DNA of 22,292 nucleotides from Desulfonatronovibrio sp. (GTDB lineage: Bacteria; Desulfobacterota; Desulfovibrionia; Desulfovibrionales; Desulfonatronovibrionaceae): assembly GCA_003558575.1 (NCBI GenBank), contig PWPY01000223.1:1-22292 (forward strand), read 5' to 3'. Position numbers and translations under genes: made by a program. The first letter of the stretch is position 1, and every line of letters starts with the position of its first letter. Of this stretch, positions 444-17,227 are shown one piece after another. The notes below the pieces were generated by a model. That model did not search any database. It saw nothing but the letters and a program-made list of their open reading frames with translations, and was not told the DNA's origin.

Positions 444-2189
444 ATGGCGGAACAGAAACAACCTGAATATGTAGTGGATAAGGCCGGATTTGAATGGTCT
501 GAACTCTACAAAAAAGAAGACTGGATGGCCATCTGGCTCGGCTTTATCATCTTAATCGTAGGTCTTATGATATTCCTGCCCAGGCCACCGGCAGACATAG
601 ATCAGAAGCTCAGCCAGTCCCAGGCCATCATGCAGGCTGAAAAAGCAAGGACAGGCACTGCATTTGAAACTATTGAATGGCATCAGGCCAATGATACCAT
701 GTCCGGCTTGCGTGCCCGCAACCAGGATTATGGCAAAACCATTGCCAAATGGCTGAGCACTCCAGGCAGATGGGCGTCCAACCCCATGGAAGCTTTAATT
801 CTGACTGAGTCAAGGGCTGCTGAAATCCGCAGCAATGCACAGCCAAGATATGCTGAGGCTCAGGAAAAAACCAAAGCAGCCTTAGCCAGAGCAGAAGCAG
901 CCCAGGCAGCTGCTGCTGATTATAACTTTCAGAATGCTGACCTGAATGAGCAGGCCGAAGCAGCTATCAGTGAATGGCGAAGCGCCAGAAGCGCTGAAAG
1001 CAGTGCCAGATCCAGGGCAAATACTCAGCCGTACAATAAAATACCTTACCTCATTGGCATAATGATTATTTTTATGCTTTTCTTTGCTGCTGGTAGCACC
1101 CTCATGCCTCTGAACACAGCAACTTTCATCAAAGGCTTTGCCTTTGTTTTCCTTCTGGCAATTGTAGCAGAAATCATTGGAGGCAATTCAACCCTTAGAA
1201 GCTGGGGATTTGGGCCATTGATCTGGGCTATTCTTGGTGGAATGCTCATAGCCAACACCATTGGCACACCCAGATTTATTCAGGAAGCTGCCCAGACAGA
1301 ATACTTTATTAAGACCGGACTGGTTCTGCTGGGTGCAGAAATCCTTTTTGGAAAAATTCTGGCCATTGGTTTGCCAGGTATCTTTATTGCCTGGGTTGTA
1401 ACACCTACAGTTCTGGTTCTAACTTATATCTTTGGCCAGAAAGTAGTAAAAATTCCTTCCAAAACATTGAATATAACGGTGTCAGCAGACATGTGCGTCT
1501 GCGGTGTCTCCGCAGCCATTGCTACTGCAGCTGCCTGTCGGGCCACAAAAGAAGAACTGACCATCGCCCTTGGTATGTCCATGCTTTTTACAGCCGTTAT
1601 GATGATTGCCCTGCCCACGTTCATTGTTGCCGTTGGTATGCACCCTGTTCTGGGTGGTGCATGGATCGGCGGAACCATTGACTCCACAGGTGCGGTTGTT
1701 GCTGCTGGAGCATTTCTGGGTGAAACTGGAATGTTTGTCGCTGCAACCATTAAAATGATTCAGAACGTCATGATTGGTGTAATTGCCTTTGGTGTAGCTG
1801 TTTACTGGTGCACCAAGGTTGACTGCGTGCCTGGACAGACAGTCAGCAAGATGGAAATCTGGTATCGTTTTCCAAAATTCGTGCTGGGCTTCCTTGCTGC
1901 TTCCATCATCTTCTCCATCATGCTTGAATCCATGGGCCCTCGCGGCGATGTAATGCTCGACCAAGGCGTTCTTCGTGGCTTCACACGTCCCTTGAGAGAG
2001 TGGTTCTTTATCCTGGCCTTTGCTTCCATCGGTCTGACCTCAAACTTCAGAGAGATGGCAAAACACTTTAAAGGCGGAAAACCTGTTATACTGTACGTCT
2101 GCGGTCAGAGCCTCAACCTTATCCTGACCCTGACCATGGCTTACATTATGTTCTTTGTTGTATTCCCTGGAATCACAGAAACCCTGTAA
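444..2189 (+). CDS. YeiH-family putative sulfate exporter with N-terminal coiled-coil-like extension
   Basis: This is an integral membrane protein of the YeiH/UPF0324 (Cons_hypoth698) family, often annotated as putative sulfate exporter; the substrate is not proven for most members. The conserved ~380-residue transporter core starts around residue 195 and consists of many hydrophobic helices. It carries the family features C-V-C-G-V-S-A-A near residue 352 and a G-G-T-I-D-S-T-G-A-V-V-A-A-G motif near residue 410. At 581 aa it is far longer than the ~340-aa enteric YeiH. The extra N-terminus has one membrane segment (about 28-46) and then a soluble, Ala/Glu/Gln-rich, probably helical region (about 50-195). 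The start is supported by AAGGAG seven bases upstream of the ATG. A small membrane-protein gene follows after a stem-loop. In a sulfate reducer this could move sulfate or a related oxyanion, but that is inference. Confidence 0.85.
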   Translation: MAEQKQPEYVVDKAGFEWSELYKKEDWMAIWLGFIILIVGLMIFLPRPPADIDQKLSQSQAIMQAEKARTGTAFETIEWHQANDTMSGLRARNQDYGKTIAKWLSTPGRWASNPMEALILTESRAAEIRSNAQPRYAEAQEKTKAALARAEAAQAAAADYNFQNADLNEQAEAAISEWRSARSAESSARSRANTQPYNKIPYLIGIMIIFMLFFAAGSTLMPLNTATFIKGFAFVFLLAIVAEIIGGNSTLRSWGFGPLIWAILGGMLIANTIGTPRFIQEAAQTEYFIKTGLVLLGAEILFGKILAIGLPGIFIAWVVTPTVLVLTYIFGQKVVKIPSKTLNITVSADMCVCGVSAAIATAAACRATKEELTIALGMSMLFTAVMMIALPTFIVAVGMHPVLGGAWIGGTIDSTGAVVAAGAFLGETGMFVAATIKMIQNVMIGVIAFGVAVYWCTKVDCVPGQTVSKMEIWYRFPKFVLGFLAASIIFSIMLESMGPRGDVMLDQGVLRGFTRPLREWFFILAFASIGLTSNFREMAKHFKGGKPVILYVCGQSLNLILTLTMAYIMFFVVFPGITETL

Positions 2190-4845: not shown

Positions 4846-6585
4846 ATGGCCAGAGTTCTTCGCATCAACACCAGAAACAAAAAAGTTACAGAAGAAGACT
4901 TGGCGGGTGATTACGCAGGGCTTGGCGGAAGAGGCCTTACCTCTCGCATTGTACGCAAGGAGGTTCCACCAGCATGCCATCCTCTAAGCGCTCAGAACAA
5001 GCTGATCGTTGCTCCAGGCCTTTTGACCGGAACTACTGCTGCCAACACCGGCCGTATTTCTGTGGGTGGGAAATCTCCCCTTACTGGAACCATCAAAGAA
5101 TCCAATGCTGGTGGAACCATGTCCCAAAAACTCGCCAAGCTTAATATTATGGGTCTGGTCCTTGAAGACAAGCCAGAACCGGGATCTCCCTTTCAAACCC
5201 TGTATATCAATAAAGAGGGTGCAAAGCTAATGGAAATTCCGGAAATATCCGGCATGGGAACTTACGATGCATCCAAAAAGCTCTTTGAAAAATTTGGCCA
5301 GAAAGTTGGAATAATGGTTATTGGACCTGCCGGTGAAAACACCAGGCTCGCTTCATCAATTCAGTTTACTGATCCCAAAGGCAATCCCAGCCGTGCAGCA
5401 GGCAGGGGCGGTCTTGGAGCTTTAATGGGCTCCAAAAAAATCAAGGCCATTGTTATTGACTCAGAAGACGCAAAAGCGCCCGAAGCTGCTGATAAAGAAG
5501 CATTCAAGGCTGCAGCCAAAAGATGGGCTGAAATCCTGGTAAGCCATCCAGTTACTGGACAGGGACTGCCATCTTATGGAACATCCATTCTCATTAACAT
5601 TATTAATGAAGCCGGCACTCTGCCCACCAAAAACTTCCGGGATGGCCGTTTTGACAAGGCAGCAGATATCAGCGGCGAAAAAATGGTGGAGATTATCAAC
5701 CAGAGAAAAGGTGTGGCCAAAGAAGGTTGCCATGCTGGATGCGTGATTCAGTGTTCCCAGAAATATTGCGATGAAAAAGGTGAATATCTTACATCAGGCT
5801 TTGAGTATGAAACAGTATGGGCCTTTGGTTCCAACCTGCTTATCAGCAATATGGACCAGATAGCCATGCTTGATCGCCTGTGCGATGATCTTGGTCTGGA
5901 TACCATTGAAACCGGAACCACTGTGGCCATGGCCATGGAGGGTGGCGTTATCCCCTGGGGTGACGGTCAGGCAGCCATTGACTTGCTCAAAAGACTTTAT
6001 GATCCCAAGGATTACCTCGGAGCAATAATAGGTAACGGAACATCCTTTGCAGCTGAAGCCTTTGGTGTGGACAGAGTTCCTGTGGTAAAGAAACAGTCTC
6101 TGCCTGCTTACGATCCCAGGGCAGCTAAGGGCGTTGGCGTTACATATGCCACAAATCCCATGGGTGCTGACCATACAGCTGGCTACGCCATTTGCCAGAA
6201 CATTCTTAAGGTTGGTGGCGATATTGATCCTCTGGGCAAGGAAGGCAACATCGAAGTCTCCAAGAACCTGCAGATTGCCACAGCAGCTGTGGATGCAACT
6301 GGATTTTGCCTGTTTGTAGCCTTTGCAGTTCTGGATACTGATGATGCGCTTGAGACCATAGCCAAACTGATCAGTGCCAGATTTGGAATTAACTTTACAG
6401 CAGACGACATCGGCAAGACAGGAATTGAAATTCTAAAAGATGAGTTTTCCTTTAACCGGGATGCCGGGTTCACAGCTGCCCATGATCAGCTCCCGGACTT
6501 CTTCACCAATGAAGAGCTGCCCCCGCACAAGGTCAAATGGGATTTTACTGCTCAGGAACTGCAAAAAGCAAAAGTTGATTTCTAA
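4846..6585 (+). CDS. Aldehyde:ferredoxin oxidoreductase family tungsten/molybdenum enzyme (YdhV-like)
   Basis: This cytosolic oxidoreductase should carry a bis-pyranopterin tungsten (or molybdenum) cofactor and one [4Fe-4S] cluster. Visible motifs are the pterin-binding A-A-G-R-G-G-L-G-A-L-M-G-S near residue 184, E-Y-E-T near 325, G-A-D-H-T near 440 and D-A-T-G-F-C near 483-488. Cluster ligands would be C295, C299, C303 and C488. The first three have C-x3-C-x3-C spacing, unlike the C-x2-C-x3-C of Pyrococcus AOR; as I recall, this is shared by YdhV-like members, so an aldehyde substrate should not be assumed. At 579 aa it is slightly shorter than classical AOR (~605). An AGGAGG ribosome binding site precedes the ATG. 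MoaD- and ThiF-like genes follow, and a radical SAM gene is divergent, which supports a dedicated cofactor module. Confidence 0.88.
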   Translation: MARVLRINTRNKKVTEEDLAGDYAGLGGRGLTSRIVRKEVPPACHPLSAQNKLIVAPGLLTGTTAANTGRISVGGKSPLTGTIKESNAGGTMSQKLAKLNIMGLVLEDKPEPGSPFQTLYINKEGAKLMEIPEISGMGTYDASKKLFEKFGQKVGIMVIGPAGENTRLASSIQFTDPKGNPSRAAGRGGLGALMGSKKIKAIVIDSEDAKAPEAADKEAFKAAAKRWAEILVSHPVTGQGLPSYGTSILINIINEAGTLPTKNFRDGRFDKAADISGEKMVEIINQRKGVAKEGCHAGCVIQCSQKYCDEKGEYLTSGFEYETVWAFGSNLLISNMDQIAMLDRLCDDLGLDTIETGTTVAMAMEGGVIPWGDGQAAIDLLKRLYDPKDYLGAIIGNGTSFAAEAFGVDRVPVVKKQSLPAYDPRAAKGVGVTYATNPMGADHTAGYAICQNILKVGGDIDPLGKEGNIEVSKNLQIATAAVDATGFCLFVAFAVLDTDDALETIAKLISARFGINFTADDIGKTGIEILKDEFSFNRDAGFTAAHDQLPDFFTNEELPPHKVKWDFTAQELQKAKVDF

Positions 6586-6912: not shown

Positions 6913-7752
6913 TTGAAAAAAAAATCCTTTCACTCTGAGCTCAGAAACAACTCAGATGAACTCTCTGACAAGCCTTTCCAGACAATTTCAAGCTCGCTCC
7001 TGCTCCAGACAGCTGATATCTTTCGCCTGAGCCCCCACCAGGCTCAGATCCAGGCCCTCAAGGCAAACATTCTTCCAGAAAGATACCTGAGAAATACCCC
7101 TTCCCTGTCAATGAACAAACAGATCCTGCTGGCTGAATCCAGAGTTTTTTTAATTGGCCTGGGTGGACTTGGAGGATACATCCTGGAAATCCTGGCCAGA
7201 ACCGGCGTAGGCGAATTCATCCTTGCAGACGGCGATCATTTTGAGGAAAGCAATCTTAATCGCCAGATACTGGGAACAACAGAAAGTATAGGGCAATCAA
7301 AAGCCTTTGAGGCTGAAAAAAGAATTAAATCTGTCAATCCATTCTGCAACGCCCGAATCATTCCGGAATTTCTTGATCATTCCGCACTGCCTGCCCTTAT
7401 CCAGAGTACGGACCTTGTGATTGACGCCCTGGGCGGAATCAAATTCAGACCAACCCTTCTTGACCAAGCCTCTAAGGCTGACCTGCCTCTGATTACTGGA
7501 TTTGTAGCTGGAACAACCGGCCTTGCCTCAACTGTTTATCCGCAGGGAAAATCCCCTTCAGCCTTCTGGCAGGGAGATGACCTTCAGGGTGCTGAAAACA
7601 TCCTGGGCAATATGGCCACCATAGTAAGCATGATCGCAACAATACAGGCCAGTGAGGCCATCAGAATCATAACCCAGGGCACACCACGTCTAAGAGATAA
7701 GGTGCTGGTGGCTGATTCTGAGAACTTGACCTTTGAATTACTTGAATTGTAG
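6913..7752 (+). CDS. ThiF/MoeB/HesA-type adenylyltransferase acting on the MoaD-like protein
   Basis: This E1-like enzyme should adenylate the MoaD-like C-terminus. A Rossmann motif G-L-G-G-L-G-G lies at 82-88 and the ATP-contacting N-L-N-R-Q at 114-118. The start is a TTG with GGAGG 7 bases upstream, overlapping the end of moaD; the first ATG would cut into the family's N-terminal E-R-Y-L-R-N-like region. Three features are odd. The usual D-x-x-D-N metal/catalytic motif reads D-A-L-G-G at 171-175. There are no C-x-x-C pairs for the structural zinc of MoeB. The only cysteine is in N-P-F-C-N, so there is no obvious thioester cysteine. It may be a specialised minimal E1 for the AOR module. Assignment to the superfamily is firm; the specific role is inferred. 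Confidence 0.85.
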   Translation: MKKKSFHSELRNNSDELSDKPFQTISSSLLLQTADIFRLSPHQAQIQALKANILPERYLRNTPSLSMNKQILLAESRVFLIGLGGLGGYILEILARTGVGEFILADGDHFEESNLNRQILGTTESIGQSKAFEAEKRIKSVNPFCNARIIPEFLDHSALPALIQSTDLVIDALGGIKFRPTLLDQASKADLPLITGFVAGTTGLASTVYPQGKSPSAFWQGDDLQGAENILGNMATIVSMIATIQASEAIRIITQGTPRLRDKVLVADSENLTFELLEL

Positions 7753-14811: not shown

Positions 14812-14899
14812 GCCATCCTGCTTTTTAGTTTTTCCTTGCTCCAAGACCTGCTAAGTGCTATTCTTACTCAAGAATAAAAAAATAGTTTCAGGAGGACCT

Positions 14900-16735
14900 A
14901 TGTTTGATTCCTTATTCCACAAAAATCCTGCCAGGCAGCATTATAATATCGATGATGTCGACAAACCAGAGCTGTTAAGGGAACTTTATCCTTATAACAA
15001 AATATGCAGGGTTTCCTTTGATGACTCATTTATTATGCCCAGGCCTCCAGAAAAAATATTTATTACTGACACTACTTTCAGGGATGGCCAGCAGGCCAGA
15101 CCACCTTTTTCAGTCCAGCAGATAGCGGACATATTCGAGCTGCTTCATAAACTGGCCGGGCATTCAGGATTGATACGCCAAAGTGAATTTTTTCTTTACT
15201 CTGACAAAGACAAAAAGGCTGTCCATGCCTGTCAGGATAAAGGATATAAATTTCCCGAAGTTACCGGATGGATCAGGGCCAACAAGGACGATCTGAAGCT
15301 GGTTAAAGAGATGGAACTAAAAGAAACCGGGATGCTCACCTCTGTCTCTTATTACCATATCTTTCTCAAGCTCGGTAAAACGCGCAAGCAGGCTGCTGAA
15401 GATTATCTAAGGCTTGTGGAAGCTGCCCTGGACTGGGATATAATACCAAGATGTCACTTTGAGGACATTACCAGGGCAGATATCTATGGGTTCTGTATCC
15501 CTCTGGCCCAGAAACTCATGGATCTTTCCAGACAGAAAGGACTACCTGTTAAAATAAGACTTTGCGATACCATGGGTTACGGAGTTCCATATCCAGGAGC
15601 CTCTCTGCCCCGAAGTGTTGCCAAGATAGTACGCACTTTTACTGATGAAGCCCAGGTTCCCAGTGAATGGCTGGAATGGCATGGTCATAATGACTTTCAT
15701 AAGGGCTTTATAAATGCTACTACAGCCTGGATTTACGGCTGTTCCGGAGTTAACGCCACTGTATTCGGATTTGGAGAAAGAACTGGCAATGCCCCCTTGG
15801 AAGCATTGATTATCGAATATATCTCCCTTACAGGAGACGATGATTCAGCATACACGCCTGCAATCACTGAAATGGCCAGATACTTTCAAAAAAATCTCAA
15901 TGTTGAGATCCCACCCAACTATCCTTTTGCTGGTCGCGATTTCAATGCCACGAGCGCAGGCATACATGTTGACGGTCTGTTAAAAAATGAAGAAATATAC
16001 AATATTTTCAACACTAAGCAGATTCTCCACAGAAATGTTCCAATAATTATTACAGACAAAACAGGTCGCTCCGGGGTGGCTTACTGGATAAATCACAACC
16101 TCAACCTTTCTGAAGAGCAAAAGGTAGATAAGCGCCATCCGGCTGTAGGGAAAATATATGATAAAATCATGCGCTCTTACGCCAAAGGCAGAACAACCAA
16201 TTTTTCCCATGAAGAAATGCAAAAACTGGTGCGCAGGTTCATTCCGGACCTCTTCCTGTCATCTTTTGAACAGCTTAAGGTACTGGCCAGTAAAGTTCTG
16301 GCAAATATTATGAAGGAACTTGCTGAGAACCCTTCCATGGCCACAATGGATAAGGACAATATTGACCTGGTACTCAATGACTTCCTGAGCGAGTACCCAT
16401 TTATTCAATATATGTATGTGACTGACATAAATGGTTGTTTGCTTACCTGGAATGTTAGTGATATTGGTGACTTATCAAAGTACAGACAGGTACCTTCAGG
16501 AGCAGATCTCTCAGACAGAGAATGGTTTATCCGGCCTGTCAAAACCGGAAAACTACATATCACTGATTTCTATAAATCGTACTTTACCGGAAAACTGTGC
16601 TTGACTGCTGCCACACCAATATTTACCACTGAAGACGAAATTGTAGGTATTCTTGGTGCAGACATCAGGTTTGACGAACTTGCAAAAATTCAGGAAGGCT
16701 TGGCTGACGATCAGGAAGTATCCCTGGACCATTAG
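14900..16735 (+). CDS. Re-citrate/homocitrate-synthase-like enzyme fused to a C-terminal PDC/Cache sensor domain
   Basis: Residues ~45-350 form an HMGL-like (isopropylmalate/homocitrate synthase superfamily) barrel that condenses acetyl-CoA with a 2-oxo acid. It shows D57 and R61 in T-D-T-T-F-R-D-G-Q-Q, metal histidines H261 and H263 in H-G-H-N-D, and G-E-R-T-G-N at 292-297. F-R-D-G-Q-Q-A-R-P-P-F and P-R-C-H-F-E-D-I-T-R-A-D recall the Re-citrate synthases of Clostridium kluyveri and Desulfovibrio, so citrate synthesis is my best guess. There is no LeuA leucine-binding domain. Instead residues ~455-605 look like a PDC/Cache domain: M-Y-V-T-D-I-N-G, R540-x-W542-F543, Y558 and D588. No membrane segment exists, so the sensor would be cytosolic. 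The ATG at 14900 has AGGAGG upstream; an earlier in-frame ATG at 14855 does not. Confidence 0.8.
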   Translation: MFDSLFHKNPARQHYNIDDVDKPELLRELYPYNKICRVSFDDSFIMPRPPEKIFITDTTFRDGQQARPPFSVQQIADIFELLHKLAGHSGLIRQSEFFLYSDKDKKAVHACQDKGYKFPEVTGWIRANKDDLKLVKEMELKETGMLTSVSYYHIFLKLGKTRKQAAEDYLRLVEAALDWDIIPRCHFEDITRADIYGFCIPLAQKLMDLSRQKGLPVKIRLCDTMGYGVPYPGASLPRSVAKIVRTFTDEAQVPSEWLEWHGHNDFHKGFINATTAWIYGCSGVNATVFGFGERTGNAPLEALIIEYISLTGDDDSAYTPAITEMARYFQKNLNVEIPPNYPFAGRDFNATSAGIHVDGLLKNEEIYNIFNTKQILHRNVPIIITDKTGRSGVAYWINHNLNLSEEQKVDKRHPAVGKIYDKIMRSYAKGRTTNFSHEEMQKLVRRFIPDLFLSSFEQLKVLASKVLANIMKELAENPSMATMDKDNIDLVLNDFLSEYPFIQYMYVTDINGCLLTWNVSDIGDLSKYRQVPSGADLSDREWFIRPVKTGKLHITDFYKSYFTGKLCLTAATPIFTTEDEIVGILGADIRFDELAKIQEGLADDQEVSLDH

Positions 16736-16744
16736 GAGAAAAAA

Positions 16745-17227
16745 ATGTCTAAAAAATTTATTTTACTGCTTTTGATAATGTTTATTGCCGGATGTGCCAA
16801 TATGCAGAGGTCATCCCCTGAAAACTCTTATGAGCCCTTGGAAACCTACCCGGTCGATGACCAGATCACTACTGGAGATGACGTTGCAGTTAACGACTCT
16901 CATCGTCATAGGTATTATGATTTTGATGATATTCCAATACCCAATGAGATGAAAATCGACACCAGCGAATCAATTTTATTTGAATCCCAGAATATAAAGG
17001 CAGGGTCACTTACTTTCACAGGAAGAGTAGACCCGGACTCTTTGTTCAGCTATTTTCAAGTGGCCATGCAGAATGAGGGCTGGAGAGCACTTAGTTATAT
17101 CAGATACGGGAGCTATATCCTGACTTTTGATAAACCAGGCAAGCTGTGCATAATCCGTATTATTGAAAGATCATTCAGGTCAGAACTCCAGATCTGGGTA
17201 TCTCCCAAAATATCCCCGGACAATTGA
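16745..17227 (+). CDS. Lipoprotein of unknown function
   Basis: The 160-aa product has a classic lipoprotein signal: K-K, a Leu/Ile core and lipobox I-A-G-C with C17 as the lipidated residue. After a Ser/Pro/Asp-rich linker (about 18-60) comes a compact domain with Y-D-F-D-D-I-P-I-P-N-E-M-K near residue 60, G-S-L-T-F-T-G-R-V near 92 and M-Q-N-E-G-W near 113. This layout is familiar from uncharacterised lipoproteins of Deltaproteobacteria, but I cannot name the family. TTAGGAG, overlapping the stop of the synthase gene, is the ribosome binding site, so the two genes are tightly coupled. The stop codon overlaps or nearly abuts coaBC. Confidence 0.8.
   Translation: MSKKFILLLLIMFIAGCANMQRSSPENSYEPLETYPVDDQITTGDDVAVNDSHRHRYYDFDDIPIPNEMKIDTSESILFESQNIKAGSLTFTGRVDPDSLFSYFQVAMQNEGWRALSYIRYGSYILTFDKPGKLCIIRIIERSFRSELQIWVSPKISPDN

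Follow-up and report, generated by a model that had tools for sequence, protein, structure and literature searches.

A C-terminal cytosolic Cache domain on a putative Re-citrate synthase of Desulfonatronovibrio and its relatives

The window, by which we mean the whole stretch of 22,292 nucleotides of Desulfonatronovibrio sp. DNA that was analysed, carries on its forward strand, at 14900..16735, a coding sequence for a 611-residue protein, a putative Re-citrate synthase that ends in a cytosolic Cache domain. A likely ribosome-binding site, AGGAGG, is found at 14890..14895, 4 nt 5' of the ATG. All features of the protein are given on the same strand. The HMGL-like catalytic TIM barrel occupies residues 53–305 (15056..15814; Pfam PF00682, 99.8 bits) and is followed by an HCS_D2-like post-barrel subdomain at residues 352–407 (15953..16120), for which the PF22617 score of 21.8 bits does not reach the cut-off of 27. 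A junction at residues 437–454 (16208..16261), close to where the alignment of Cache-less relatives ends (∼440–468), leads into a single Cache/PDC domain at residues 455–600 (16262..16699), which is defined by matches above cut-off to PF02743 and PF22673, by the predicted structure and by fold comparison. The highest 19-residue hydropathy mean is 0.99, and the protein therefore has no membrane segment. AlphaFold modelled the full-length protein with a pLDDT of 91.7 from a 66-row alignment, and we regard both the fold and the fusion of enzyme and Cache as near certain. Directly 3' of the enzyme gene, 16745..17227 (+) encodes a small lipoprotein-like protein of 160 residues without a Pfam match; its cluster (16) consists of three loci, two from Desulfonatronospira and the window itself.

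Judged by its sequence, the protein is a member of the HMGL-like/homocitrate synthase superfamily with a complete HMGL-type catalytic domain. The D-x-x-x-R, HxH and GERxGN motifs are all present, and F60–Q65, H261, G262, H263, G292–R294, G296 and N297 are invariant across 66 sequences. The best PDB fold match of the full-length model is the homocitrate synthase 6ktq, with the MAM synthase 6e1j, other homocitrate synthases and isopropylmalate synthases also among the top matches. By sequence, the best PDB match is the Leptospira citramalate synthase and the best NCBIfam match is the homocitrate synthase NifV, at 125.7 bits against a cut-off of 462.9; the NCBIfam synthase models, among the matches listed, all score far under their own cut-offs. 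Relatives from Bacillota are 46–57% identical across the catalytic part. A Pfam scan at E ≤ 1 found no LeuA dimer or RAM domain in the protein.

Among 395 genomes of the phylum, 158 contain only this family, 161 only PF00285 (Citrate_synt, which also takes in methylcitrate synthase), 39 both and 37 neither, giving an odds ratio of 0.057 and a Fisher p of 2e-36, a value that overstates the significance of the mutual exclusion since it is uncorrected for kinship. The window's own genome, which is 78% complete, gave no Citrate_synt match at E ≤ 1e-30, no NADP isocitrate dehydrogenase (NF005425) and only one aconitase-like match, under cut-off. Four same-order genomes were examined. In each of them, the gene downstream of the enzyme is an NADP isocitrate dehydrogenase scoring above its NCBIfam cut-off; it is encoded on the same strand and starts ∼60 nt or less from the enzyme match. 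Three of these genomes also have an aconitase-family gene on that contig, no more than ∼3.3 kb away. Such neighbours provide the setting of the 2-oxoglutarate pathway, which supports assignment as a Re-citrate synthase. Over the 77 loci in which the Re-citrate synthase reading frame was called (76 named loci and the window), aconitase or isocitrate dehydrogenase occurs no more than two genes away in 13 and is absent there in 64. Aspartate-tRNA ligase is the neighbour seen most often, lying immediately upstream in 28 of the 77; at L044–L101 it is often preceded by a gene that reads as histidine-tRNA ligase. Aspartate is one step away from oxaloacetate. The product of 14900..16735 is thus likely to be a citrate synthase of the Re type, as the original prediction had guessed, with both the mutual exclusion with PF00285 and the isocitrate dehydrogenase and aconitase neighbours speaking for it; any placement within the clade of characterised Re-citrate synthases would likewise depend on context.

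The enzymes of S. aciditrophicus and C. kluyveri are named as known Re-citrate synthases in the accessible part of PMC12016533. Like the protein described here, CKL_0973 (C. kluyveri), SYN_02536 (S. aciditrophicus) and HM1_2993 (H. modesticaldum) are HMGL/homocitrate-synthase-like and replace Si-citrate synthase. The Bacillota relatives examined, unlike the 14900..16735 protein, stop short of the Cache domain. Relatives of the Syntrophales/Syntrophaceae type that do carry it have 628–631 residues and masses of 71.2–71.9 kDa. The tagged S. aciditrophicus enzyme is reportedly about 72.9 kDa and tetrameric, and because this mass is near that of the Cache-bearing relatives, the characterised enzyme may itself already be Cache-bearing.

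The C-terminal region was assigned from several lines of evidence. Residues 467–596 match dCache_1 with 49.9 bits (Pfam cut-off 45) and residues 529–595 match MCP-like_PDC_1 with 43.2 bits (cut-off 27). Modelled alone, residues 445–611 gave a pLDDT of 89.9 and a single module that runs from a long helix through a PAS-like sheet to a closing helix, so that the PAS-like sheet and long N-terminal helix by which the Cache superfamily is recognised are both present. Structure prediction and comparison with known PDC/Cache structures, which had been proposed as a check, returned KinD as the best PDB match, along with WalK, several amino-acid chemoreceptors and CitA, a citrate-binding sensor that superposes on the model with 2.3 Å over 127 residues. 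The central claim of the original prediction, that an HMGL-type synthase is joined to a cytosolic domain of Cache/PDC fold, is thus upheld by Pfam, by the model, by the fold matches and by the lack of a membrane segment; the region has a Cache-like fold, and a LeuA-type regulatory domain was not seen by Pfam at E ≤ 1. A LeuA dimer domain at the C-terminus can be ruled out on the same two grounds. The likeness to dCache_1 as it had been worded did not hold, since there is one Cache module and the dCache_1 model is covered only at positions 29–157 of 240, and a double Cache is excluded for the same reason. The extracytoplasmic location typical of Cache is absent from this protein. According to the available part of PMC4822843, Cache domains are extracytoplasmic in 78% of cases, a location that is typical and not universal, and intracellular examples are already known, YkuI_C and Diacid_rec being mainly intracellular.

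The fusion is not a local oddity. A relative of the protein was found in 197 of the 395 phylum genomes at E ≤ 1e-40, and among the matches listed for the phylum all 150 extend to query residue 597 or further. Searching 118 phylum genomes with the Cache alone gave a match in 57 of the 59 enzyme-bearing ones, the exceptions being G016 and G034. The best 80 of 586 relatives include records titled Desulfovibrio, Syntrophales, Nitrospirae and Spirochaetes, as well as Elusimicrobia, Omnitrophota, Lentisphaerae and Fibrobacteres. The suggested search for HMGL-like plus Cache architectures therefore recovered the fusion in the phylum and in Nitrospirota, Spirochaetota, Elusimicrobiota and others, and it is a widespread architecture of several phyla. 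Within 161 extracted proteins, 116 have the Cache and 40 complete ones are without it. Neither class includes L096 and L106, which are truncated at contig ends, L112, which has masked bases, or the fragment L139; L002 is a LeuA-like paralogue and L003 gave no reading frame hit at E 1e-20. Chance joining or mis-assembly is ruled out by the recurrence of the fusion in these 116 of 161. In Bacillota, the enzyme is present in 27 of 249 genomes and, among the matches listed, none runs beyond residue 480; in Spirochaetota it is present in 25 of 100, and 11 of the 27 matches listed have the Cache while 16 do not. The existence of Cache-less homologues in these two phyla indicates that the Cache is dispensable for catalysis in the family. 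The Spirochaetota genomes G656 and G692 (L148 and L145) each hold one Cache-bearing and one Cache-less copy, a natural comparison for regulation.

The predicted pocket of the Cache comprises R540 and W542 (16517..16525), Y558 and S560 (16571..16579) and D588 (16661..16663), all on the forward strand. Conservation was counted over 113 Cache-bearing relatives, leaving out of the 116 the 5'-incomplete L086, L108 and L151; the 113 rows contain near-duplicates, and 65 sequences remain below 80% identity. W542, S560, L566 and D588 are invariant in all 113, and F543 and T569 have one variant each. R540 is kept in 103 and replaced by H, S, K, C or T in the other 10, the losses with a named source being from Spirochaetota and Lentisphaerota, and position 558 is Tyr in 96, Phe in 15 and neither in two. 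The full combination of R540, W542, Y558 and D588 with Phe or Tyr at 543 occurs in 92 of the 113. This contrasts with the domain as a whole, for which the mean pairwise identity over the 65 sequences is 40%, against 62% for the catalytic part. The mean entropy of R540, W542, Y558 and D588 is 0.44 bits, compared with 1.95 for residues 455–599, and only 29 of 100000 random residue quartets were equally low. Distances in the Cache and catalytic parts correlate (Mantel 0.64, equalled by 0 of 999 permutations). The Cache is otherwise divergent, and its pocket is selectively conserved.

In our alignment, R540, W542, Y558 and D588 correspond to R126, W128, Y144 and D173 of PctA, positions that the part of PMC10104139 available to us describes for amino-acid binding. 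Two other positions differ: that of PctA Y121 is A535 here and is aromatic in only 23 of the 113 relatives, and that of PctA D146 is S560, Ser in every one. The dCache_1AA motif put forward originally is thus matched at four positions and departs at the other two, and straight membership is rejected because there is a single module and the Y121 position is not aromatic here, the likeness itself being retained. More generally, PctA, PctB, PctC, Tlp3, Mlp24, Mlp37 and CtaA share with the enzyme the fold of their membrane-distal module and the R/W/Y/D pocket positions; these amino-acid dCache_1 chemoreceptors are, however, extracytoplasmic and have a double Cache, whereas the enzyme Cache lacks the conserved Y121 position and has Ser for D146. 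The top fold match, KinD (4jgo, pyruvate-bound), has R131 at the position of R540, which is also the residue altered in the R131A KinD chain, and Ser at that of S560, but has Phe in place of W542 and Ala in place of D588. The KinD sensor domain is extracytoplasmic.

We also used a profile of the enzyme Caches to look for their nearest kin in the 118 phylum genomes. Ranked next after the enzymes, at E 1e-34 to 1e-33, are the C-terminal Caches of methyl-accepting proteins without a membrane segment; further down come a membrane receptor with a C-terminal Cache (1e-26), a periplasmic receptor (1e-14) and EAL proteins (∼1e-10). In the reverse direction, with a profile of the chemoreceptor Caches and up to 10 preliminary candidates scored per genome, the enzymes come straight after the chemoreceptors. 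The idea of a domain borrowed from a chemoreceptor is correct as to kind, but the non-enzyme Caches found to match best in the phylum are already cytosolic and sit at the C-terminus of soluble chemoreceptors. In Bacillota, the enzyme-Cache profile recovered CheW proteins into which a Cache is inserted, membrane receptors that end in a Cache, and a periplasmic receptor with a full dCache. The last of these, L234 (E 2.9e-26), has a score similar to those of membrane receptors whose Cache is cytosolic, and it carries the S/C pocket variant, which is thus not confined to cytosolic Caches. With soluble, membrane and periplasmic classes assigned from hydropathy and reading, Ser occupies position 560 in 49 of the 51 cytosolic Caches of a 60-row set, including those of Re-citrate synthases, against 4 of the 9 periplasmic ones (22/22 enzymes, 12/12 soluble receptors, 7/9 membrane receptors with a C-terminal Cache, 5/5 CheW and 3/3 EAL). 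YkuI (2bas) was matched by the A2 profile at E 0.0012. The soluble chemoreceptors with a C-terminal Cache, the Cache-inserted CheW and the YkuI-type EAL proteins all have cytosolic Caches that share the pocket of the enzyme, and differ from it in that their output is chemotaxis or c-di-GMP signalling.

A Cache tree was built after removing the duplicates L195–L199 and L248, with every third A2 row representing Re-citrate synthase; L211 in it is a contig-end fragment, and the start of L213 may be longer and membrane-bearing. One branch separates the Re-citrate synthase Caches from the rest (73/99; recovered in 78% of 200 bootstrap trees), which fits one fusion without supporting it strongly. 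The tree has no supported branch uniting them with the soluble chemoreceptor Caches, so that this kinship rests on profile scores and pocket identity. On quick catalytic trees the Cache label needs 3–4 changes, and a topology constrained to keep the Cache-bearing enzymes together passed the AU test (p 0.333). With their very long outgroup branch, these trees do not tell gain of the Cache from loss. Several relatives are unusual in themselves. In the Bacillota proteins L238:1255-2100 and L240:1144-2097, on which Pfam was run, the CheW match falls into two stretches, which flank dCache_1 or lie next to it, and L235, L237 and L239 are further CheW-like proteins with a mid-protein Cache; a Cache-bearing CheW would be a soluble adaptor of the chemotaxis system that carries a sensor domain itself. 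The soluble methyl-accepting proteins L195–L198, L204–L208, L210, L212, L217, L243 and L245 have the Cache C-terminal of the signalling domain, the reverse of the usual order.

Taken together, the explanation that we favour, and consider somewhat probable, is that of a Re-type citrate synthase in which the C-terminal cytosolic Cache serves as an allosteric site; a ligand-binding regulatory role of the Cache as such is slightly more probable still. The enzyme would make citrate from acetyl-CoA and oxaloacetate and so open the route to 2-oxoglutarate and glutamate in these anaerobes, and the pocket would bind a small intracellular carboxylate, with R540, W542 and Y558 holding the carboxylate and D588 possibly holding an amino group. 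By analogy with LeuA and RAM domains, which are unrelated to Cache and shift the catalytic domains of sister enzymes, ligand binding could act on the catalytic domains via the joining helix. LeuA/isopropylmalate synthase, with its LeuA dimer domain, and homocitrate synthase with RAM (dRAM in the title of 6ktq) have the same catalytic fold and likewise place the allosteric domain at the C-terminal end, but the added domain here is a Cache. An α-amino acid is a little more likely as ligand than a plain oxo acid or carboxylate, because D588 is present where the pyruvate-binding KinD has Ala. Glutamate or aspartate as feedback effector would be the most economical guess, and glutamate in particular is just that, a guess.

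The preference for an amino acid has to be weighed against a pocket that binds a TCA acid free of an amino group (citrate, oxaloacetate, pyruvate or 2-oxoglutarate), by which the enzyme would be subject to product inhibition or would sense its substrate. That KinD, whose structure contains pyruvate, has the R540 and S560 positions in common with the enzyme, that citrate-binding CitA superposes well and that R540 is not invariant would all suit this reading; we nonetheless think it rather doubtful, as D588 is Asp in 113 of 113 against Ala in KinD and an acidic pocket residue disfavours a di- or tricarboxylate. It is less likely again that the Cache is a structural module for dimers or tetramers whose relic pocket binds nothing. 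Receptor Caches usually pair through the lead helix, which is seen at residues 455–475 of the full-length model, and the Cache-less relatives show that catalysis without the domain is possible, but the pocket is the best-kept part of a fast-changing domain, with four of its residues invariant, and its retention across phyla is not expected of a pure scaffold. Least probable is that the catalytic part belongs to another aldol-type synthase of the LeuA superfamily, making homocitrate, citramalate or a new acid: the NifV and citramalate synthase matches point that way, but all of the listed NCBIfam synthase models fall far short of their cut-offs, and neither the mutual exclusion with PF00285 nor the operons with isocitrate dehydrogenase and aconitase would be expected. 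A wider version of the favoured reading, an allosteric Cache on a Re-citrate synthase, can be offered tentatively and is on balance doubtful: one cytosolic Cache lineage, with the pocket R-x-W-F, Y-x-S, C-x-T, D, may be common to citrate synthase, soluble chemoreceptors, CheW and c-di-GMP phosphodiesterases, such that the same intracellular metabolite gates glutamate-directed carbon flow and reports the metabolic state to chemotaxis.

Synthases of the LeuA superfamily with an allosteric domain at the C-terminus are a known kind, and a Cache in that role appears, as far as searched, to be new to print. The searchable literature, outside which lie most subscription papers, including the main ones on Re-citrate synthase, contained no paper that mentions a Cache domain alongside homocitrate or isopropylmalate synthase, and nowhere in it did we see a Re-citrate synthase described as having a Cache; the three papers that mention a Cache domain with citrate synthase have titles on muscle, a schistosome and horses, and the terms cytoplasmic, cytosolic, intracellular or soluble Cache domain found no use. 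The accessible parts of the literature likewise gave no account of how Re-type enzymes are regulated, and our search found no description of the ligands of cytosolic chemoreceptors with the same pocket. Citrate synthase acts where energy metabolism and amino-acid synthesis part. If the favoured reading is true, a built-in Cache would be a new route of regulation for a core enzyme, and a receptor ligand domain would have been turned into a metabolic allosteric site, by which cells may steer carbon toward glutamate synthesis. The system is testable, as the enzyme is soluble and easily assayed, its effector can be screened for and its pocket is in common with that of cytosolic chemoreceptors.

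Elsewhere in the window, 444..2189 (+) encodes a YeiH-type transporter with Cons_hypoth698 at residues 230–550; its N-terminal extension is ∼230 residues long and in part Ala/Glu-rich and coiled-coil-like. An aldehyde ferredoxin oxidoreductase gene at 4846..6585 (+) adjoins one for a ThiF/MoeB-like protein at 6913..7752 (+), which is plausibly its cofactor partner.
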